This document shows, in pieces, positions 37,209 to 46,916 of a DNA stretch of 64,000 nucleotides. Made by a program: the position numbers and the translations under genes. Each line of letters opens with the position of its first letter. The first letter of the stretch is position 1. Below the pieces are notes generated by a model. That model saw only the letters and a program-made list of their open reading frames with translations, was not told where the DNA came from and searched no databases. This DNA is from Pontibacter ramchanderi. GTDB taxonomy: Bacteria; Bacteroidota; Bacteroidia; Cytophagales; Hymenobacteraceae. The stretch is taken from contig NZ_PJMU01000001.1 of assembly GCF_002846395.1 (NCBI RefSeq), forward strand, positions 1,178,001 to 1,242,000, read 5' to 3'.

Positions 37209-38543
37209 CTAAGCTGCAACACGGGCAGCAGCAGGTTGTTTACTAAGGAAGCGGTCGACAAAAGGGGTAAAAATGGCCAGCAGGCTAAACAGCAACAGCA
37301 GGTACAGGTACCAGGCATTGGCCCAGATGTCTGCAAAAGAGGCTGTCCCGTTGGTAAAACTAAGCAGGATCAGGATTTGAGCCCCGTAAGGCAATAAGCC
37401 CTGCACCACGCAGGAGAAAATATCCAGCAGGGCAGCAGCTTTGCGTTTATCTACCTGGTAGCTGCGGCTGATTTCTTTGGCTACCGGGCCCGTCACGACA
37501 ATGGAAACCGTGTTGTTGGCGATAGCGGCATTGGTGCCTCCTACCAATGCACCTATACCTAGTTGCGCCGAGCGGTTGCCTTTGATCGCACCTGTGACTT
37601 TCTCCAGCAGGAACTGGATACCGCCTGCTTCACGCACCATTTCAGCCAGGCCACCGGTGAGCATGGAGAGCAGGAAAATCTCGAACATGCCCGTAAAGCC
37701 TTCATATACCTTTTTGCTGAACACCAGCACATCCAGACTGCCATACGCCAACCCTACCACACCAGAAGCGATAGTTCCGATGGTCAGCACCACAAACACG
37801 TTTACGCCCATCACCGCCAGCACGATCACCAACAGGTATGGCGCGATCTGCCAGAACATAAAGTCGCCTAGAACCGCCGGTACTTCCACAGCGGCAGATG
37901 GGTATTGCCCGGCGATTAGTAAGAATAATATGGTGATCAAAGCGGCTGGTCCGGCAATAAGCATGTTCACCCGGAACTTATCTTTCATGCTGCACTCCTG
38001 CGTCTGGGTAGCCGCAATGGTGGTATCAGAAATGAAGGAAAGGTTGTCGCCGAACATGGCACCGCCCAGCAAAGCGCCCAGCAGCAGCGGCAAGGCGATA
38101 TGGCTCTGCTCGGCCAGCCCTACCGCAATGGGTCCCAAAGCCACAATGGAGCCTACTGAGGTACCGGTAGCCGTGGAAAGAAAAGCGGCCAGCAGAAAAA
38201 TGCCCAGTGCCAGGTACTCCACCGGAAGCAGACTAAGCCCCAGGTTAACCGTAGCGTCTACTCCACCTACGGCTTTGGAAACAGTAGCAAAGGCACCGGC
38301 CAGCAGGTAAATCAGGCACATGGTCATGATCCTGGTATCGCCGCAGCCGCGGATCAGGGCCTCCACTTTAGCATTGATAGAGCCTTTCAAAATAAAGAAA
38401 GCGGAGATGATGCCAATGACCACGGCCACGGGAGAAGGCATGGCATAAAAGTCGTCGAGCAAGATGCCGGCTCCTAAAAAAGTAAAAACAAAAATCAGGA
38501 ACGGGACCAGGGCCGTTCCGCCACTCTTCTGAATGTGCTGCAT
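37209..38543 (-). CDS. NhaC superfamily transporter (MetT-like by context)
   Basis: 444-residue inner-membrane protein with about 11-12 hydrophobic segments. The NhaC-family core is visible: FLSTATGTSVGSIVALGPIA, LGGAMFGDNLSFISDTTIAA and GGTNAAIANNTVSIVVTGP. Annotated relatives are called Na+/H+ antiporters, but a branch under S-box control in other bacteria has been named MetT, a predicted methionine transporter. It is the last gene of a SusC-SusD-NhaC run (87 bp after susD). The leader carries a SAM-I riboswitch, so I infer methionine or a related sulfur metabolite as its substrate. Family assignment is firm; substrate is inference. Confidence 0.85.
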   Translation of the reverse strand: MQHIQKSGGTALVPFLIFVFTFLGAGILLDDFYAMPSPVAVVIGIISAFFILKGSINAKVEALIRGCGDTRIMTMCLIYLLAGAFATVSKAVGGVDATVNLGLSLLPVEYLALGIFLLAAFLSTATGTSVGSIVALGPIAVGLAEQSHIALPLLLGALLGGAMFGDNLSFISDTTIAATQTQECSMKDKFRVNMLIAGPAALITILFLLIAGQYPSAAVEVPAVLGDFMFWQIAPYLLVIVLAVMGVNVFVVLTIGTIASGVVGLAYGSLDVLVFSKKVYEGFTGMFEIFLLSMLTGGLAEMVREAGGIQFLLEKVTGAIKGNRSAQLGIGALVGGTNAAIANNTVSIVVTGPVAKEISRSYQVDKRKAAALLDIFSCVVQGLLPYGAQILILLSFTNGTASFADIWANAWYLYLLLLFSLLAIFTPFVDRFLSKQPAAARVAA

Positions 38544-38630: not shown

Positions 38631-39992
38631 CTAGTAACCCGGGTTTTGGTCTTGCGGCCCCAGATCCGGGTCGGCCAGAATCTCGCTGTTCGGGATTGGG
38701 AAGCGGAGCTTGTTCGGGTCCGCTATACCTAGCACCGCCTGTGCCCTGCCCGTCCGGATCAGGTCGAACCAACGGTGCCCTTCAAAGGCCAACTCCACTT
38801 TGCGCTCCTGCTCCACAGCCAGCAAGGCAGCCGCCACGTCGGCTGTCACCAGGGATTGCAAGTCAGCCCGCTTTCGCACCAGGTTCAGGTCTTCCAGGCC
38901 GCCTGCCAGATTGTTTTGTCGCAGTCTCGCTTCGGCCCGGATCAGGTACTGCTCGGCGATGCGCAGGATAAAAGCCCCGTCTTCACCCGTCGCGATTTTG
39001 GTGTACTTCTGCCCGAAAACGGTTTCTGTGCTCCCGTTCACCTGCGATCCGATCAGGGCACTTCTGCTGCCGCCGATGGCCGGGTTGCGCAGGTCCTGCG
39101 TGATGCTGGCTGATGGCTTCCATTCGTAACGGCCGCCGCGGCTGCTGGTGAGCCAATAGTTGGCGTGGGAGTTGCGGTCGGCGTTGTCGTACACTAGTTC
39201 CAGGATGCTCTCCTCGGTCAGCTTGCCGGTATAGAAGGCACTGTAGGGCTGTACCAGACGCGTCTTGCCGTTGTTGAGAACCAGCGTGGCGAATTCCTCC
39301 GCCTTGTCCCAGTTTTGCTGGTACAGGTATAGCCTGGCTTTCAGGGCCCACACCGCTTCTTTTGAGGCCCTGGACCGAACGCTCAAAGTTGGCAACAACA
39401 GCTCGGCCTGCTCCAGGTCGGCCAGCACCTGGGCGTAGGTTTGCTCGAGCGAAGACCGCCCGATACCCTTTCCGCTGTTCTTGTCCTTGGTGGGCTGCAG
39501 CACCAGCGGCACCCCGCCCCAGGCACGGCCCAGGTCAAAGTAAGCGAGGGCACGCAGGAAGTAGGCCTCCCCCAGGATCTTCTGGCGCTGCACCTCCGTC
39601 AGGTTGCGGTCCTGTATGCCCGGCACCTTGTCGATAAGGTTGTTGGAAACGTTCACCACCCGGTAGATCTGGCTCCACACGGACTTGATGGAGCTGTTCT
39701 CGGCAGTGATGGCGTTCAGGTCGAACTGCTGGTAAAAGTTGAAAGAACCGGACCAGTTTACTTCGTCGGCAGAGAGATAGGCCAGCGCCGGGTACTCAAA
39801 GCCGTAGTAGCTGTTACTCTGGAGTTCGCTGTAGGCACCGAGCAGGGCCGCTTCCGCCCCACGCTTGTCGGTGATGGACAGCTCGGAGGAGATGTCGAGG
39901 CGGGGCTGTGGCTCCAGGATGTTGTCGCAGCCGGAGAGTGTTACCAACAGGGCCAGTGCGAGTGCTTTATAGTTATTCAGTAGAAATTTCAT
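38631..39992 (-). CDS. RagB/SusD family nutrient-binding lipoprotein
   Basis: 453-residue surface lipoprotein (LLVTLSGCDNILEPQPR). SusD features: QKILGEAYFLRALAYFDLGR, the TPR-like WALKARLYLYQQNWDKAEEF, and the C-terminal KVELAFEGHRWFDLIRTGRA. It ends in LADPDLGPQDQNPGY, a usual ending. It follows the SusC gene by 89 bp on the same strand. No glycoside hydrolase is nearby and the leader carries a SAM riboswitch, so this pair more likely imports a peptide or sulfur compound than a glycan. Confidence 0.94.
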   Translation of the reverse strand: MKFLLNNYKALALALLVTLSGCDNILEPQPRLDISSELSITDKRGAEAALLGAYSELQSNSYYGFEYPALAYLSADEVNWSGSFNFYQQFDLNAITAENSSIKSVWSQIYRVVNVSNNLIDKVPGIQDRNLTEVQRQKILGEAYFLRALAYFDLGRAWGGVPLVLQPTKDKNSGKGIGRSSLEQTYAQVLADLEQAELLLPTLSVRSRASKEAVWALKARLYLYQQNWDKAEEFATLVLNNGKTRLVQPYSAFYTGKLTEESILELVYDNADRNSHANYWLTSSRGGRYEWKPSASITQDLRNPAIGGSRSALIGSQVNGSTETVFGQKYTKIATGEDGAFILRIAEQYLIRAEARLRQNNLAGGLEDLNLVRKRADLQSLVTADVAAALLAVEQERKVELAFEGHRWFDLIRTGRAQAVLGIADPNKLRFPIPNSEILADPDLGPQDQNPGY

Positions 39993-40081: not shown

Positions 40082-43000
40082 TTAGAAAGTTACATTGATG
40101 CCTGCCTGAAAGGCCCTCGGCTGTGGCACTACGGCATGGTCGATGCCGCGCACGTTCTGGTTATTGCCGGCCACGTTCACCTCCGGGTCCAGGCCGCTGT
40201 AGTTGGTCAGCGTCCAGAGGTTGGTGCCGGACACATAGAGGCGCAGGTTGGCAATCTTATACCTGTTGAGCACTTCTGCCGGCACGGTATAGCCCAGCGT
40301 AACGGAGCGCAGGCGCAGGAACGAACCGTCCTCGATAAATCGGCTGCTTGGCAGGTTGTAGTTGTTGCCAACACGGGTCAGGCGCGGCACATCGGTCACA
40401 TCGCCTGGCTGCTGCCAGCGGTCCAGCTGGCCCGGCAAAAACGTGATGGAGCCGTTGCGGGTGCCGCCGTGCTCCATAAAGAAGCGGTTCAGGTTGAGGA
40501 TGTCGTTGCCGTACTCGAAGTAGAACAGGGCCCCCAGGTCGAAGCGCTTGTAGTTGAGCTGGTTGTTCAGGCCGCCGAAGAAATCAGGTGCGGCATTGCC
40601 CGCGATCTGGCGGTCTGCCACGTTGATCACACCATTTTGGTCCACGTCGTCGTACACGGCGTCGCCTGTCTGCGGGTCCACGTAGAGCTGGCGGTATACC
40701 CAGAACGCGTATACCTGGCCGCCCTCCTCCATGCGTATCCAGTCGCGGGAGTGCTGGTTGATCGGGATTGGTAGCTTCTCGATGCGGTTCACGTTGCGGG
40801 CGATGTTCAGGCTGGTTGTCCAGGTGAAGTCATCTTGCGCGATGTTGGTGGAGGAGATGTTCAACTCCACTCCTTTGTTGCTGATCTCACCCAGGTTCTC
40901 GAACACGCTGCTAAAGCCTGTCTTGGCCGCCACCGGCACTTCTAAAAGTAGATCGCGGGTATACTTGTTATAGTAGTTGGCTTCGAGTTTCAGGCGGTTT
41001 TGCAGCAAGGCCAGGTCGAGGCCCACGTTCCATTGGCGGGTAGTCTCCCACTTCAGGTCCGGGTTGGCCAGCTGTTGATGGCTGATGCCGGGCAGCCCGT
41101 CATAGTTGCGGCCGGCACGCCACAAGCCCAGCGAGGCAAAGTCGTTGATGCCGTTCTGGTTACCGGTCAGGCCGATGTTAGCACGGAGCTTTATCAAATC
41201 GAAAGGCAGGTCCTGGGCAAAGGCTTCTTCCGAGACAATCCAGGAAGCACCCAGCGATGGGAATACACCCCAGCGGTTGGCGGCTCCGAAGCGTGAAGAC
41301 GCGTCGGCACGCACACTGCCGTCCACGCTATACCTGTCTTTGTAGGTATAGCCGGCCCGCGAAAAGAAGGATACCAGGCCGTTCTGGCTCGAGTTGGTGG
41401 AGCCGGTTTGCAGCGACGAAGAGGCTATCTCCTGGAAGTCGTCGCTCGGGAAGTTGCGGCCGGTCAGCGACAGCGTGTTATACCTGGTCTGCTGCACAGT
41501 GTTACCCAGGAGCACGTTCAGGAAATGGTCGCTGCCGAAGCGCTTGTTGTAGGTCAGCAACTGTTCGTTCAGCAAAGTCACGAGGCGGGTATCCACACGG
41601 CTGGCATTACCGGCTGGCAGGCCCACACTGATCTGCGTGTTGTTGTATACCTTGTCGGAGTAGTTGTTGTAGTCCAGGCTCCAGCTCGATTTAAAGGTCA
41701 GGCCATCCAGCACTTCGTACTCGCCATACAGGTTCGAGATCAGGCGGCTGCTTTCCCCCTTGATATTCAGGTTATCGATCAGGGCCAGGTGGTTGTCGAA
41801 GATAGAGTGGCGGGCATAGCTGCCGTCTTCGTTAATCACCGGTAGGTAGGTGGGCACGTACAGGGCCGAGTTGATCACCCCCTGGGCACTGTCGTCGTTG
41901 CGGCTCTGGTTGCGCTGGCTGTACGATACGGTGGTGCTGGTGCCGATGGTCAGGCGCTTGTTCACGAGGTGATCGTAATTGAAACGACCGCTGAAGCGCT
42001 CAAAGGCGGCAGGCTTCACGATGCCCTCCTGCTTGAAGTAGCCCCCGCCCAGGAAGAAGCGGTTGGAAGCGCCCCCACCGGAAGCCGACAGGTCGTAGCT
42101 CTGCGTACGGGCCGTGCGGAACACGTCGGGTATGCGTGAATAAGTGGTTTGCTCCTGCGGCGTGCCCAGGCCTCCCTCGCTTCTTGGGCGGAACGGCACC
42201 AAGGCTGGATTGCCCCCATCGTTCAGGAACGTCTCGTTGATGAGCTCCGCTTCCTGCTGTGCATTCACGGTTTCGTAAATCTTGGGAGCTTTCGCTATAC
42301 CTGCGTAGGACTGGAAATTGATCTTGGTCCCGGCATTGGTCTTGCCGCGCTTGGTCGTGATCAGCACCACCCCGTTGGCACCGCGGGCGCCGTAAATGGC
42401 GGTGGCGTTCGCGTCTTTCAGGATTTCGATGCTCTCGATGTCGGCCGGGTTCAGGTCGGCCAGCGGGTTGGTGGTCTGCCCGCCCAGGCTCAATCCTGAA
42501 AGCGACTGGTTATTGATGAAAACGCCGTCCACCACATAGAGTGGCTCGTTGCTGGCGTTGATGGAGGTGTTGCCCCGGATGCGCACAAAGATGCCGCCAC
42601 CTGGCGTACCGCTGGCCGCCGCGATCTGCACCCCGGAGGCCTTGCCCTGCAGCAACTGGTCAGGCGATGGCGCCGGTATACCTTTCAGTTCCTCTGGGTT
42701 CACCGAGGTCACGGCACTCGACACCGCCTTCTGCGACTGCGTGCCGTAGCCGACCACCACTACTTCGCTGAGGGCTTTGGTGTTTTCCTGTAGGCTCACC
42801 TGCACTGTTTCGCCCGCTACTTTCACTTCGCGCAGGGTATAGCCCAGGCTTGAAATCACGAGTGTCTGCCCCTGCTCCACCGGCAGGGAAAAGCTGCCAT
42901 CTACACCGGTCACGGTACCTTTGTCGGAGCCTTTGAGTTGTACGCGGGCGCCTATCAGCGGCTCGCCCGTCTTCGCATCTTTTACGACACCCCTTGTTAA

Positions 43001-43093
43001 GGTGCCCTGTGCGAGGGCCGCTATACCTGTAGCCAGCACCAGGCCAAGCGACAGCAGTACCCGCACGAATCTATTTGTGTTATGATTTTGCAT
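40082..43093 (-). CDS. SusC/RagA-type TonB-linked outer-membrane transporter, SAM-riboswitch regulated
   Basis: About 1003 residues from ATG 43093 (MQNHNTNRFVRVLLSLGLVL, signal peptide); an upstream ATG at 43126 is less likely. A carboxypeptidase-regulatory domain is at about 32-105 (VVKDAKTGEPLIGARVQLKG). The SusC plug follows with EVVVVGYGTQSQKAVSSAV, VRIRGNTSINASNEPLYVVD and ANATAIYGARGANGVVLIT. The barrel ends in AFQAGINVTF. Unlike the SusC at 22-25 kb it has no STN domain, which fits control by the riboswitch leader and not by sigma/FecR. First structural gene of the SusC-SusD-NhaC operon. Confidence 0.95.
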   Translation of the reverse strand: MQNHNTNRFVRVLLSLGLVLATGIAALAQGTLTRGVVKDAKTGEPLIGARVQLKGSDKGTVTGVDGSFSLPVEQGQTLVISSLGYTLREVKVAGETVQVSLQENTKALSEVVVVGYGTQSQKAVSSAVTSVNPEELKGIPAPSPDQLLQGKASGVQIAAASGTPGGGIFVRIRGNTSINASNEPLYVVDGVFINNQSLSGLSLGGQTTNPLADLNPADIESIEILKDANATAIYGARGANGVVLITTKRGKTNAGTKINFQSYAGIAKAPKIYETVNAQQEAELINETFLNDGGNPALVPFRPRSEGGLGTPQEQTTYSRIPDVFRTARTQSYDLSASGGGASNRFFLGGGYFKQEGIVKPAAFERFSGRFNYDHLVNKRLTIGTSTTVSYSQRNQSRNDDSAQGVINSALYVPTYLPVINEDGSYARHSIFDNHLALIDNLNIKGESSRLISNLYGEYEVLDGLTFKSSWSLDYNNYSDKVYNNTQISVGLPAGNASRVDTRLVTLLNEQLLTYNKRFGSDHFLNVLLGNTVQQTRYNTLSLTGRNFPSDDFQEIASSSLQTGSTNSSQNGLVSFFSRAGYTYKDRYSVDGSVRADASSRFGAANRWGVFPSLGASWIVSEEAFAQDLPFDLIKLRANIGLTGNQNGINDFASLGLWRAGRNYDGLPGISHQQLANPDLKWETTRQWNVGLDLALLQNRLKLEANYYNKYTRDLLLEVPVAAKTGFSSVFENLGEISNKGVELNISSTNIAQDDFTWTTSLNIARNVNRIEKLPIPINQHSRDWIRMEEGGQVYAFWVYRQLYVDPQTGDAVYDDVDQNGVINVADRQIAGNAAPDFFGGLNNQLNYKRFDLGALFYFEYGNDILNLNRFFMEHGGTRNGSITFLPGQLDRWQQPGDVTDVPRLTRVGNNYNLPSSRFIEDGSFLRLRSVTLGYTVPAEVLNRYKIANLRLYVSGTNLWTLTNYSGLDPEVNVAGNNQNVRGIDHAVVPQPRAFQAGINVTF

Positions 43094-43198: not shown

Positions 43199-43231
43199 TT
43201 AGCAATAACAGCTACGCATGCGCATTCGCAT
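43199..43231 (-). CDS. Mini-ORF 2: cysteine-containing leader peptide MRMRMRSCYC
   Basis: A 10-codon ORF ending SCYC then TAA, about 105 nt before the SusC start. Its DNA begins ATGCGAATG and ends TGTTATTGCTAA, like the end of mini-ORF 1 (ATGCGAATG ... TGTTACTGC ... TGCTAA). The two look like copies of one leader-peptide cassette. Real translation is not shown; support comes from the repeated pattern and position. Confidence 0.45.
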   Translation of the reverse strand: MRMRMRSCYC

Positions 43232-43251
43232 GGTGCGGGGCAAAAAGGTGT

Positions 43252-43291
43252 GGAAGAAAGCAGTGTGCTGCTTCCCGGCGAATAAAGCCGG
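43252..43291 (-). terminator. Hairpin pair with weak T tract in the SusC leader (possible attenuator)
   Basis: On the minus strand CCGGC/GCCGG (43275-43291) is followed at once by GGAAGCAG/CTGC..TTCC (43252-43275) and then ACACCTTTTTG. It lies between mini-ORF 1 and mini-ORF 2, where an attenuator responding to leader translation would be expected. The spacer before the T run weakens it as a classical terminator. Confidence 0.45.
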
Positions 43292-43433
43292 CGTATGGCT
43301 ACGCAGCCTGGGTTGGGGTATAGGATTTCCCATGGTTAAATCAGAAAAAAAAGAATGGGTTAGAAAACGTGTTCAGCAACAACCAGGCACCACTACGGCA
43401 CCAGGAATAACTAAACGAAAAAGAATGAAAGGA

Positions 43434-43532
43434 TTAGCAACAACAGCAGTAACAGCACATTCGCATAGCAGGCGCTACGACAGGGGAAAAGGCTGAAAAT
43501 AAACTGGCTGGGGTGGAGTACGGTGTGTTCAT
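43434..43532 (-). CDS. Mini-ORF 1: leader peptide ending MRMCCYCCCC
   Basis: A 32-codon ORF whose ATG lies 8 nt after the 3' strand of riboswitch stem P1. Six of its last seven residues are Cys (CCYCCCC), then TAA. The position directly behind the S-box suggests the riboswitch controls its translation; the Cys run suggests ribosome stalling when charged Cys-tRNA is scarce. The matching ORF behind the right-hand riboswitch also ends in a Cys run, which makes chance less likely. Confidence 0.55.
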   Translation of the reverse strand: MNTPYSTPASLFSAFSPVVAPAMRMCCYCCCC

Positions 43533-43540
43533 GTGTTTCA

Positions 43541-43647
43541 ATTTATATGTCCCAAAACTGGGCAGGAGTTAGCACCTTTTCCGGCTTGCACCGATGGTTG
43601 CTAGAGGGTCGCGGAGCCTGCTCTCTCACCTCTTCTTTATAAATCTT
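43541..43647 (-). promoter_or_regulatory. SAM-I (S-box) riboswitch upstream of SusC-SusD-NhaC
   Basis: Minus-strand RNA from about 43655. P1: ATTTATA (43638-43644) with TATAAAT (43541-43547). P2a: AGAGG with CCTCT; k-turn region GTGAGA / GCGA; P2b GAG/CTC with loop CAGG; then the invariant AGCAACC. P3: CGG/CCG. J3/4: AAGGTGCTAACTCC. P4: CCC/GGG. The pseudoknot GCAGG (P2 loop) with CCTGC (after J3/4) is perfect. These are the hallmark features of the S-box class that binds S-adenosylmethionine. Confidence 0.88.
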
Positions 43648-43661
43648 CGATAAAGATGCTG

Positions 43662-43693
43662 CAAAGGTAAGGCGACAATTTTTAGGAATGCAA
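43662..43693 (-). promoter_or_regulatory. Bacteroidetes promoter reading left into the S-box/SusC leader
   Basis: Minus strand: TTG at 43693-43691, 21-bp spacer, TACCTTTG at 43669-43662. This is an exact TAnnTTTG -7 box. Predicted start near 43655, just before riboswitch P1. Confidence 0.8.
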
Positions 43694-43875
43694 GTTTTTT
43701 TAGAAAAAAATATTTTCTCCAAAAATAAAATTAGTGATACTCCAGATTTTTCAGCATACTTACTTCAAAGCTTAAAAAGATCAAATTCAGTGTATTTACC
43801 TGCACGCAACACTTGTATAGACAGGAGTAAACTACCTCCTCCCCGACATTTCTTTTCTGTTTTAAAATTTTTTTT

Positions 43876-43908
43876 TTTGCAAGTCTGGCGTATCCGCCTA
43901 TACCTTTG
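43876..43908 (+). promoter_or_regulatory. Bacteroidetes promoter reading right into the second S-box
   Basis: TTTG at 43876-43879, 21-bp spacer, TACCTTTG at 43901-43908, an exact TAnnTTTG box. Predicted start near 43915, the first base of riboswitch P1. Confidence 0.82.
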
Positions 43909-43913
43909 CAGTG

Positions 43914-44012
43914 AATTTATACCGAAGAGGTGAGAGAGCAGGCTCCGCGACCCTCTAGCAACCAGTCTGAGACCAGGTGCTACTTCCTGCCCGTTTTAGG
44001 GACCTATAAGTT
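43914..44012 (+). promoter_or_regulatory. SAM-I (S-box) riboswitch upstream of the M14 peptidase
   Basis: P1: AATTTATA with TATAAGTT (44005-44012, one G-U pair). P2a: AGAGG/CCTCT with the same k-turn and AGCAACC as the left copy. P3: GTC/GAC. J3/4: AGGTGCTACTTCC. P4: CCC/GGG. The pseudoknot GCAGG/CCTGC is kept although P3 and P4 loops differ from the left copy, which is covariation-style support. The start codon of a Cys-ended mini-ORF lies 7 nt after P1. Confidence 0.87.
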
Positions 44013-44019
44013 TAATGAC

Positions 44020-44118
44020 ATGCAACAATCTTTCTGCGCTACTCTATCGCGCCACGACTTCATCTCTACTTTTTTGAATTCCAGTGCATATTCGCTTTCC
44101 TGCTGTTGTTGCAGGTAA
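44020..44118 (+). CDS. Mini-ORF 3: leader peptide ending SCCCCR
   Basis: A 32-codon ORF starting 7 nt after P1 of the right-hand S-box. Its penultimate codons are TGC TGT TGT TGC (four Cys), then Arg and TAA. It mirrors mini-ORF 1 on the other side in position, length (32 codons each) and Cys-rich end, while the rest of the sequence is unrelated. About 200 bp of sequence without an obvious gene separate it from the M14 peptidase start. Confidence 0.5.
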   Translation: MQQSFCATLSRHDFISTFLNSSAYSLSCCCCR

Positions 44119-44315: not shown

Positions 44316-46916
44316 ATGAATTCTACCCTCCGGAAGTCTGCGCAAGCACTTCTCTCGACGCTCTTGTTATGGGCGCTTCTGGTGCTGCCAAGTGTGGCAC
44401 AAAACAGCTACTACTTCCCTAAAACCAAAAATTTCGACCCGGCTATACCTACGCCAGAGCAATTTCTGGGCTACGGTATTGGCGAGCGCCAGACCCGCTA
44501 CGACCGCGTGGTGGCCTACCTGCAGGAACTGGCCCGCTTATCCGACAAAGCCAGCATCGAAATCATCGGCTATACCTACGAGCACCGCCCGCAGGTGATC
44601 CTGACCATCACGGCACCGCAAAACCATGGCAGACTGGAGCAAATCCGGCAAGAGCACCTGCAGTTGGCCGACCCGGCCAAAGCGGCCCCTGCCCTGGCGA
44701 ACATGCCGGTGCTGGTGCACCTGGGCTACAACGTGCACGGCAACGAATCGTCGAGCACCGAGGTGTCGATGCTGACGGCCTACTACCTGGTGGCCAACCG
44801 CGATCCGGAAACGCAAAGGTACCTGCAGGAGTCGGTGGTGTTTATCGACCCCGCGCTGAACCCCGATGGCCGAGACCGCCACACCAACTGGGTGAACATG
44901 CACCAGGGCAACCCGGCCGTGAGCGACCCGGCCGACCGCGAGCACAACGAGGTATGGCCGGGCGGGCGCGGCAACCACTACTGGTTCGACCTGAACCGCG
45001 ACTGGCTCCCGATTGCGCACGTGGAGAGCCAAAACCGACTCGAATTTTACCACAAGTGGCTTCCGAACGTGGTGATCGACTTCCACGAAATGGGCACTAA
45101 CTCGACTTACTACTTTGAGCCGAGCAAGCCCTACAGCTCCGAAAACCGCCTGATCCCGCGCAGCACCTACGATGGGCTGAACGTGCTGCTGGCCAAATAT
45201 CACGCGGAGGCGCTGGATGAACTGGGCTCACTCTACTTCACCAAAGAACAATACGACAACATCTACCCGGGTTACGGCTCTACCTACCCGGACTTTCAGG
45301 GCGGCGTGGGCATTACCTTTGAACAGGCTAGCTCGCGTGGCAACAAACAGGAGAACTCGCTAGGTGTCCTGACTTTTGCCTTTACCATCCGCAACCACCT
45401 GGCCACCGGGTTGGCTACCGTAAAGGCTTCCGTAGAAAACCGCGAAACCCTGCTCAAGCACCAGCGCGAATTTTACCAGTCTGCCATTACAGATGGACGC
45501 AAGAACGGTGTGCGGGCTTATGTGTATGGCGAGAACTACGACGCGACCCGTTTACGTAAATTCACTGAACTACTGCTAGCGCACCGCATCGAGGTATACG
45601 AGCTGGAAAAATCGATCACGGCCGACGGCAAGAAGTTCGAGAAAGGCAAAGCCTATGTGGTACCGACCGAGCAACCACAGTATCGCCTGGTAGAGTCTAT
45701 CTTCGCCAAGACAAAGGAGTTTGACGACAGCGTGTTTTACGACGCCTCTACCTGGACCTTGGCGCTGGCCTACAACCTACCCCATGCGGGTTTGAAGTCA
45801 AAGGCGACTACAGGCAAGCGCGTAACCGAACTCGCAACGGTCAGCCATACCTTACCAGCCCAAAGCCGCTACGCCTACCTGCTCGACTGGGCCGATTACA
45901 ATGCCGCCGGTGCGCTCTACCTGTTGCAGGAAAAAGGCGTGGTCACGCAGACCGTGTTCAAGCCCTTTACGGCCAACACACCCGATGGGCCCAAGGCCTA
46001 CCAACCTGGTGCCATCACGATTCCGGTGGCGTCACAGAAAATCTCCGCCGACTCACTATACAAGGTGATCCAGGAAGTAGCTGAAAAGAAACAGGTGCGC
46101 TTTGCCTCCGTGAAAACTGGCCTGAGTGTGCAGGGCATTGACCTGGGCAGCAACAACATTCACACCCTTAAAAAGCCCGAGGCACTAATTCTCACAGGTC
46201 AGGGCATCACCTCATATGAAGTGGGTGAAGTGTGGTTCCTGCTCGACCAGCAACTCCACATGCCCATCTCTAAGGTAGACCTGAGCGCTTTTGCCCGACT
46301 CAACCTGGCACGCTACAACACCATCGTGCTCGTGAGCGGTGCCTACAACAGCCTCGACAAAACGGCTGTCGACAGGCTGAAGCGCTGGGTTGCCGACGGC
46401 GGCACACTCATCACGTTCAAGTCGGCCTCGGAGTGGGCCATTAAGCAAGGTATAGCGCAGGGCAAGATCGTCCCTGCCCGCGACACAGCCAGCAAAGTCG
46501 CCCGCATCGACTTTGCCAACGCCGCGCCTACTGAGGGCGCACAGTCGGTGGGCGGTTCCATTTACGAAGTGGATCTGGACACCTCGCACCCGCTGGGCTT
46601 TGGTTTCACCAATCGCAAACTGCCGGTATACCGCAACAGCACCACCATCCTGACACCAGCCAAAAACCCCTACAGCACCGTGGCCCAGTATACCAAAGAC
46701 CCATGGTTGAGCGGCTATGTGTCGAAAGGCAACCTGCGCAAGATCAGTAACTCGGCCGCGCTACTGGTGAGCGACCAGGGGCAGGGACGTGTGATTCTGT
46801 TTGCCGACAACCCGAACTTCAGGGGCACCTGGTACGGCACCAACAAGCTGTTCTTCAATGCGATATTTTTCGGATCGGTGATCAGGACACCCGGTACAGG
46901 TATAGCTGCGGAGTAA
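44316..46916 (+). CDS. Secreted M14 family zinc metallocarboxypeptidase
   Basis: 866 residues with a signal peptide (LLLWALLVLPSVAQ). The M14 catalytic domain is at about 50-380. Zinc ligands His141 and Glu144 are in VHGNES, and His257 in DFHEMG; the general-base Glu336 is in GITFEQ. Substrate-pocket segments are PALNPDGRDRH and WFDLNRDWLP. The second half (about 400-860) is a long beta-rich region usual in this Bacteroidetes subgroup, with a glutamine-amidotransferase-like segment (RYNTIVLVSGAYNSLD, RVILFADNPNFRGTWYG). It would trim peptides outside the cytoplasm. It reads away from a SAM-I riboswitch, so it is probably induced by methionine/SAM shortage. Confidence 0.92.
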   Translation: MNSTLRKSAQALLSTLLLWALLVLPSVAQNSYYFPKTKNFDPAIPTPEQFLGYGIGERQTRYDRVVAYLQELARLSDKASIEIIGYTYEHRPQVILTITAPQNHGRLEQIRQEHLQLADPAKAAPALANMPVLVHLGYNVHGNESSSTEVSMLTAYYLVANRDPETQRYLQESVVFIDPALNPDGRDRHTNWVNMHQGNPAVSDPADREHNEVWPGGRGNHYWFDLNRDWLPIAHVESQNRLEFYHKWLPNVVIDFHEMGTNSTYYFEPSKPYSSENRLIPRSTYDGLNVLLAKYHAEALDELGSLYFTKEQYDNIYPGYGSTYPDFQGGVGITFEQASSRGNKQENSLGVLTFAFTIRNHLATGLATVKASVENRETLLKHQREFYQSAITDGRKNGVRAYVYGENYDATRLRKFTELLLAHRIEVYELEKSITADGKKFEKGKAYVVPTEQPQYRLVESIFAKTKEFDDSVFYDASTWTLALAYNLPHAGLKSKATTGKRVTELATVSHTLPAQSRYAYLLDWADYNAAGALYLLQEKGVVTQTVFKPFTANTPDGPKAYQPGAITIPVASQKISADSLYKVIQEVAEKKQVRFASVKTGLSVQGIDLGSNNIHTLKKPEALILTGQGITSYEVGEVWFLLDQQLHMPISKVDLSAFARLNLARYNTIVLVSGAYNSLDKTAVDRLKRWVADGGTLITFKSASEWAIKQGIAQGKIVPARDTASKVARIDFANAAPTEGAQSVGGSIYEVDLDTSHPLGFGFTNRKLPVYRNSTTILTPAKNPYSTVAQYTKDPWLSGYVSKGNLRKISNSAALLVSDQGQGRVILFADNPNFRGTWYGTNKLFFNAIFFGSVIRTPGTGIAAE

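Follow-up and report, generated by a model that had tools for sequence, protein, structure and literature searches.

Cysteine-ended leader ORFs behind SAM-I riboswitches in Pontibacter: a putative serial two-signal attenuator of sulfur genes

Within the 64,000-nt stretch of Pontibacter ramchanderi DNA analysed here (the window), two divergent SAM-I riboswitches, one on the minus strand facing a SusC-type gene and one on the plus strand facing an M14 peptidase gene, each run directly into a short ORF that ends in a run of cysteine codons. At the sequence level, this anatomy is conserved among related genomes, is absent at metH, and comes apart into its two modules at several loci. Layered control by riboswitch and cysteine leader is supported as far as such evidence allows. 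Under the preferred reading, to which we assign a probability of roughly two in three, each unit would be a serial two-signal attenuator whose gene is expressed only at low SAM combined with low cysteine.

Two divergent riboswitches and their leader ORFs

The SAM-I aptamer of the SusC-SusD-NhaC-type transcript lies at 43540..43645 on the minus strand (cmscan, 71 bits, model positions 1-108 of 108), and that of the M14 peptidase transcript at 43914..44012 on the plus strand (cmscan, 59.2 bits, likewise 1-108 of 108). Both match the model at full length and exceed the curated cut-off of RF00162 (SAM-I), which is 44.4 bits. Directly 5' of each aptamer, at 43662..43669 (minus strand) and 43901..43908 (plus strand), stands TACCTTTG, a match to the TAnnTTTG consensus of the -7 element (PMC9723704).

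The initial annotation had placed an ATG shortly after P1 on both sides, opening a 32-codon ORF with a cysteine-rich end, and retranslation bears this out; the distance from the last base of P1 to the leader ATG is 7 nt at both switches. On the SusC side the 32-codon ORF (43434..43532, minus strand, ATG at 43532, MNTPYSTPASLFSAFSPVVAPAMRMCCYCCCC) ends in CCYCCCC, and its 32-codon counterpart on the M14 side (44020..44118, plus strand, ATG at 44020, MQQSFCATLSRHDFISTFLNSSAYSLSCCCCR) ends in SCCCCR. A third ORF, MRMRMRSCYC, had been proposed ahead of SusC. Its cysteine end is indeed found upstream of that gene, but the peptide is really the C-terminus of a 44-codon ORF at 43199..43333 on the minus strand.

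About 100 nt separate the first SusC leader from the second, and about as many lie between the second and the gene for a SusC/RagA-type TonB-linked outer membrane protein (40082..43093, minus strand, ATG at 43093; TIGR04056, 871 bits, with a query that began four codons inside the ORF). The same transcript carries genes for a SusD-type lipoprotein (38631..39992, minus strand; PF14322 and PF07980) and an NhaC-family transporter (37209..38543, minus strand; PF03553), the latter with a possible MetT-like role. On the plus strand, 197 nt lie between the leader stop and the start of the M14 zinc carboxypeptidase gene (44316..46916; PF00246). The SusC, M14 peptidase and NhaC-type genes fit the cysteine pathway as uptake genes only.

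The first SusC leader has cysteine-ended 32-codon orthologues in 5/5 orthologous loci (own included). In the second, an MGN start and a cysteine-bearing end are kept in 5/5 loci (own included) at lengths of 41-44 codons, so that SusC has tandem cysteine leaders; only the first of them directly adjoins the riboswitch. The M14 leader likewise has 32-codon orthologues in 5/5 loci (own included), ending in SCCC followed by two residues. Such orthologous loci are few: among 50 genomes of the genus, 5 have a close M14 relative (at least 85% identity).

Codons ahead of the cysteine run of the second SusC leader, in the window as at L276-L279, are able to pair with bases just past the stop. All five orthologues are predicted to form a hairpin around the cysteine codons, at -15.2 to -21.0 kcal/mol, seemingly accompanied by compensatory changes as judged by eye.

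The P. ramchanderi genome has five SAM-I matches. Outside the window, a third switch with a cysteine leader precedes metY (ATG at +9, 44 codons, ending in CCSRMCMCSCCC), and the remaining two switches lack a leader. At one of these, the metH ATG lies at +75. At the other, a gene that by its sequence looks Cys/Met-metabolism-like has its own ATG at +10, where leaders begin elsewhere. The cysH match of the genome has neither switch nor leader. The pattern TGYx4-TAR occurs at two places in this genome, one in the SusC leader and one that, by eye, apparently lies within another coding frame.

Conservation and distribution of the leaders

RF00162 has 84 matches in 27 of 29 genomes, and all 84 were inspected. 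A leader was scored where an ATG 2-14 nt after P1 opens an ORF 27-49 aa long whose last eight residues include three or more cysteines. This rule finds a leader at 53 of 60 non-metH matches, compared with 23 of 12,000 dinucleotide shuffles, and at 0/24 matches before metH. The 53 leaders are not independent, since 49 of them stem from Pontibacter, the window's own genus. Alignment in related genomes, which the initial annotation had put forward as a check of in-frame conservation, finds that frame, start position and cysteine end are all preserved, with a body that varies.

By gene class, assigned with rough tags, leaders precede 21/22 metY, 6/6 sulfite-reductase-type, 7/7 NhaC-type, 4/4 SusC, 3/3 M14 and 5/5 RimK-like genes. 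PAPS-reductase-type genes have a leader in 6/6 cases by tag, or in 7/8 with two further PAPS-reductase-like genes tagged 'other', one with a leader (G018) and one without (G019). Pfam backs representatives of four tagged classes and an amino acid permease, and the PAPS reductase, sulfite reductase and Cys/Met metabolism enzyme that it identifies place the regulated genes in the cysteine pathway. Among the seven non-metH misses, two genes start at an ATG of their own at +10, a Pontibacter metY has a leader from which the cysteine run was lost, a PAPS-reductase-like gene follows an ORF ending in HCCRY, and three are further loci.

Pontibacter is placed in the Hymenobacteraceae, Cytophagales (NCBI). 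Outside the genus, 134 loci were surveyed, a non-random set of best-scoring and hand-picked loci among the matches listed, with ATG or GTG accepted as a start; leader rules are not identical among the separate surveys. In another genus of the family, a cysteine ORF lies behind 16/18 non-metH switches of this set. The figure is 12/30 in other families of the order, where the other 18 are switches without a cysteine run. Among the picked non-metH loci of other orders of the class no cysteine ORF is found (0/20), nor among those of other classes (0/34), giving 0/54 outside the order. At metH outside the genus, the survey finds a cysteine ORF at 0/32 loci.

Of 80 named metY loci, 54 carry a SAM motif according to a regular expression that overlooks some true sites (L461, for one, is a SAM match in a separate search), and 46 of these have a cysteine leader. 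Pontibacter contributes 24 and Rufibacter 10, while Botryobacter, Sabulibacter, Imperialibacter, Mongoliibacter and Belliella (weak) have one case each; the rest are metagenome bins. One metagenome bin with the depositor's label Flavobacteriales, a label outside the order, has a switch and a cysteine leader before metY (L380); a mislabelled bin, transfer and wider distribution are the alternatives. In Algoriphagus, the SAM motif is kept and the cysteine run is missing at 4/4 metY loci (L370, L371, L381, L382), and the gene start lies nearer P1, at 133-162 nt, an apparent loss of the leader sensor. Across the order, a strict rule finds a cysteine ORF at 6/60 cysI and cysH loci and none at 54/60, in a sample of 30/42 and 30/31 matches, respectively; this rule misses the GTG-started leaders that the 134-locus survey counts.

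Two further features were noticed at these genes. An ORF with a common CACWFWCC lies upstream of cysI in two genomes of one family (L413, L423), with no SAM motif by the regular expression. At L323-L333 and L340, a stretch some 10-40 nt ahead of the metY ATG carries the inverted repeat GTTCAATT/AATTGTAAC and hardly varies within Rufibacter and Sabulibacter.

Cysteine leaders also occur without a riboswitch. One member of the order (G022) has three cysteine-ended ORFs (L389, L387, L392) with no Rfam match up to E = 1 and hence no riboswitch. The genes behind them, named by eye, encode a sulfite reductase (L389) and a SusC/TonB-type receptor and thioredoxin-like protein (L387, L392). The L389 leader, on the minus strand, is followed by two predicted antiterminator/terminator sets with a second cysteine-rich ORF between them; the antiterminators fold at -13.8 and -16.9 kcal/mol and the U-tailed terminators at -13.2 and -19.3 kcal/mol. 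A terminator scan at L389 recovers the second terminator (2 sites in total vs 1.1 expected), and the same scan at the receptor locus of this genome finds none. On these modelled folds, the sulfite reductase leader is read as classical attenuation. A genome of the same genus (G361) has no leader before cysI. Among 20 TGYx4-TAR places picked from the list, three have an in-frame ATG and resemble stand-alone leaders, all of them in G022, and the other 17 have no in-frame ATG.

Switch-only genes, including those of two genomes in which the main gene's own ATG lies at +10 behind the switch with no leader, and this leader-only relative show, as far as gene arrangement goes, that switch and leader are separable modules. 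Their occurrence apart would also suit an arrangement in which switch and cysteine leader are both real and independent of each other, SAM acting on transcription or RNA stability and the leader being translated at all SAM levels. Geometry argues against it. Of the 53 leaders, 51 have their ATG 6-11 nt past P1, the main-gene start occupies that same place in the two genomes just named, and the ORF takes up the place of a post-aptamer terminator, so that independence seems fairly unlikely.

Signs of translation and the downstream RNA

Counting back from the stop, cysteine frequencies in the leaders are 0.87, 0.74, 0.96, 0.89, 0.81, 0.62 and 0.53, then at most 0.21. Cysteine is thus gathered in the last seven positions, and the bodies are variable. 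Cysteine codons are TGT 193 times and TGC 139 times, and the stops are TAA (31), TAG (19) and TGA (3). Cysteine codons clustered near the stop, with run and frame kept and the body not, are what a cysteine attenuator leader would be expected to have.

The way the codons vary bears on whether the ORFs are read at all. Aligned Cys/Cys codon pairs number 1,060 in 23 Pontibacter metY leaders, and 459 of them show a synonymous difference; pairwise differences by codon position, over all codons, are 0.39, 0.41 and 0.50, a modest third-position excess. If the TGY repeats mattered as RNA only, with the ORFs untranslated, such free exchange of TGC and TGT would be hard to explain, as would stop codons that vary and an in-frame start kept at a fixed distance in 53/60 loci. 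Cysteine-codon third positions are almost fixed in Rufibacter, and the cysteine-codon segment shows excess complementarity to a downstream arm (see below), both of which speak for a role as RNA; such a role on its own is nevertheless very improbable. Least probable of all is that the cysteine-rich peptides act in trans, for instance by metal binding, which is conceivable for cysteine runs. The body is not conserved, the run adjoins the stop, the leaders are linked to sulfur genes behind a SAM switch, and no leader has a Pfam or NCBIfam match but one at E 0.013, far under its cut-off.

Methionine makes up 15.6% of the last 15 residues in 21 metY leaders (including L001), many of which are close relatives. 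The bodies of these leaders have 0.3%, and the tails of 32 other leaders 2.7%. These Met codons sit just ahead of the cysteine run. Since metY is a methionine gene, Met sensing is plausible there, and metY leaders may read Met-tRNA besides Cys-tRNA.

Downstream of the leaders, the clearest structure is seen at metY. Taken over 46 metY leaders, the best hairpin in the stretch from leader stop to gene has a mean of -17.9 kcal/mol, compared with -10.6 kcal/mol for shuffled sequence; it is stabler than the shuffle mean in 43/46 and begins 20-35 nt past the leader stop in 32/46. Its tail is U-rich in Rufibacter (6.5 T in 10), and a terminator scan finds nothing at one Rufibacter locus. Over 78 leaders, the segment of cysteine codons and stop pairs with the 5' arm at -12.3, compared with -9.5 for shuffled arms, and with the 3' arm at a smaller excess (-10.0 vs -8.8); the p values of this test are too small because related loci were counted separately. 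In an earlier version in which the cysteine segment was shuffled instead, pairing stands out at most Rufibacter loci and at a few elsewhere, and Pontibacter gives no 5'-arm pairing signal. A terminator scan of the window finds 2 terminator-like sites vs 2.6 expected. Mutually exclusive hairpins are clear at the G022 cysI leader and suggestive in metY leaders, and the window has no terminator excess.

Several other candidate readouts fared poorly. Consensus folds suggested that the cysteine codons sequester the main start; own pairs do no better than swapped pairs (mean fraction 0.51, 53 loci), and this idea is rejected. A universal hairpin between cysteine codons and the bases past the stop gains -6.0 vs -5.3 kcal/mol for shuffled sequence in 106 leaders (p 0.02); set against other stretches of the same spacer the comparison is -6.0 vs -6.3 (p 0.20), so the hairpin is not general. 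Synonymous-site selection for pairing with the hairpin arm is not supported (own -14.1 vs -13.4, mean fraction 0.42). A terminator right behind the aptamer is set aside as well, the leader ORF filling that place and the window scan giving no excess. C outnumbers G both in leader bodies (ratio 1.7) and in spacers (ratio 1.5), and Rho-dependent termination behind the leaders is therefore possible.

Proposed mechanism and relation to known systems

From this anatomy we infer both SAM gating and cysteine sensing. In the proposed serial attenuator, the SAM-I riboswitch stands at the transcript start. Bound SAM would close P1, usually 6-11 nt ahead of the leader ATG, a geometry expected to block leader initiation; at low SAM, the leader would be translated. 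When Cys-tRNA is charged, the ribosome would read through the cysteine run as far as the stop, and the RNA downstream would adopt its off form. When Cys-tRNA is short, the ribosome would stall at the start of the run and leave the end of the run free, presumably to pair with the 5' arm of the downstream hairpin and turn the gene on, a step best seen in relatives. By analogy with classical attenuators, an untranslated leader would be off too. Because SAM would block the leader, and because charged Cys-tRNA and an untranslated leader would both mean off, expression would be confined to the state of low SAM together with low cysteine. At metY, the Met codons just before the cysteine run offer a possible Met-tRNA input, and SusC in the window would have two such leaders in series. 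Confidence in the mechanism is slightly reduced by the L380 exception, by the relatedness of the loci and by the negative terminator scans.

The logic of the gate might differ, with an untranslated leader meaning on, or with a main gene that needs ribosomes arriving from the leader. The end of the cysteine run is itself able to pair with the hairpin arm, and absent further upstream pairing an untranslated leader would be permissive; the window, with no terminator excess, is compatible with several readouts. Sulfur genes would, however, then turn on at high SAM, and leader-to-gene spacers with class medians of 133-385 nt disfavour simple translational coupling. These variants are distinctly unlikely, and the serial attenuator with an off state for the untranslated leader remains the preferred reading.

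The initial annotation held that no described system combines the two elements. That is too broad, since a B12 riboswitch controlling a translated uORF has been published (PMC11260477). For the narrower pairing, a search of an open-licence library found no SAM riboswitch with a cysteine leader. The arrangement is a new combination of known parts.

SAM-I (S box) riboswitches act through a terminator or a direct start-codon platform. Aptamer and sulfur regulon are the same here, and it is the start of a leader ORF that directly follows P1. Attenuators of the his and trp type have leader codons for the sensed amino acid and alternative hairpins. The present leaders resemble them in codon content, with alternative hairpins clearest in G022; what seems to set them apart is that a riboswitch licenses their translation. 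The enterobacterial mgtA leader joins magnesium sensing to the proline-rich ORF mgtL. As in the present case, a single leader combines a small-molecule sensor with a short, codon-sensitive ORF, although the signals and the order of elements in mgtA are different.

Cysteine-run leader peptides are described in Actinobacteria (PMC1262725) and poly-Cys uORFs in mycobacteria (Canestrari et al. 2020, as cited in PMC9094748). In the accessible parts of these sources they share with the present leaders a short ORF, cysteine codons near the stop, a place before sulfur genes and, often, no obvious terminator; unlike the present leaders, they are described there without a riboswitch (PMC1262725; PMC9094748). 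The mycobacterial uORFs are leaderless, going by the title of Canestrari et al. 2020 (via PMC9094748). In M. tuberculosis, metE and ppe2 have B12 riboswitches with translated uORFs, and at ppe2 a short upstream ORF, translated under riboswitch control, affects the main gene, much as proposed here (PMC11260477). The ligand there is B12, in contrast, and ppe2 relies on stop/start overlap and reinitiation; the same text describes no codon run for a sensed amino acid at metE or ppe2. Such an overlap is absent in the window, with its gaps of 197 nt (M14) and about 100 nt (SusC leaders). Also in print are a suggestion of leader-peptide attenuation of amino-acid operons in Flavobacterium psychrophilum (PMC9723704) and one of leader-like short ORFs in Bacteroides (PMC7366714); related literature includes PMC9373788 and PMC10272879.

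If the serial attenuator is correct, a metabolite riboswitch and a tRNA-sensing leader would act in series, with the riboswitch acting on the sensor and not on the gene. This would account for the long leaders between aptamer and gene and would provide a ready two-input RNA gate. The nearness of P1 as a control of initiation would become testable in bacteria that rarely use Shine-Dalgarno sites. Natural controls exist in metH and two other genes, which have the switch alone, and in G022, which has leaders alone. A bolder formulation, which we favour by a little over even odds, is that of a natural RNA NOR gate in which a SAM aptamer licenses a peptide sensor of Cys-tRNA and, at metY, also of Met-tRNA, reused throughout a regulon. 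One leader would then integrate up to three sulfur pools, and the design, conserved before several kinds of gene in Pontibacter and Rufibacter-like bacteria and found again in other families of the order, would be reused for functions ranging from the uptake of peptides (SusC/D, M14 peptidase, NhaC-type transporter) to the assimilation of sulfate.
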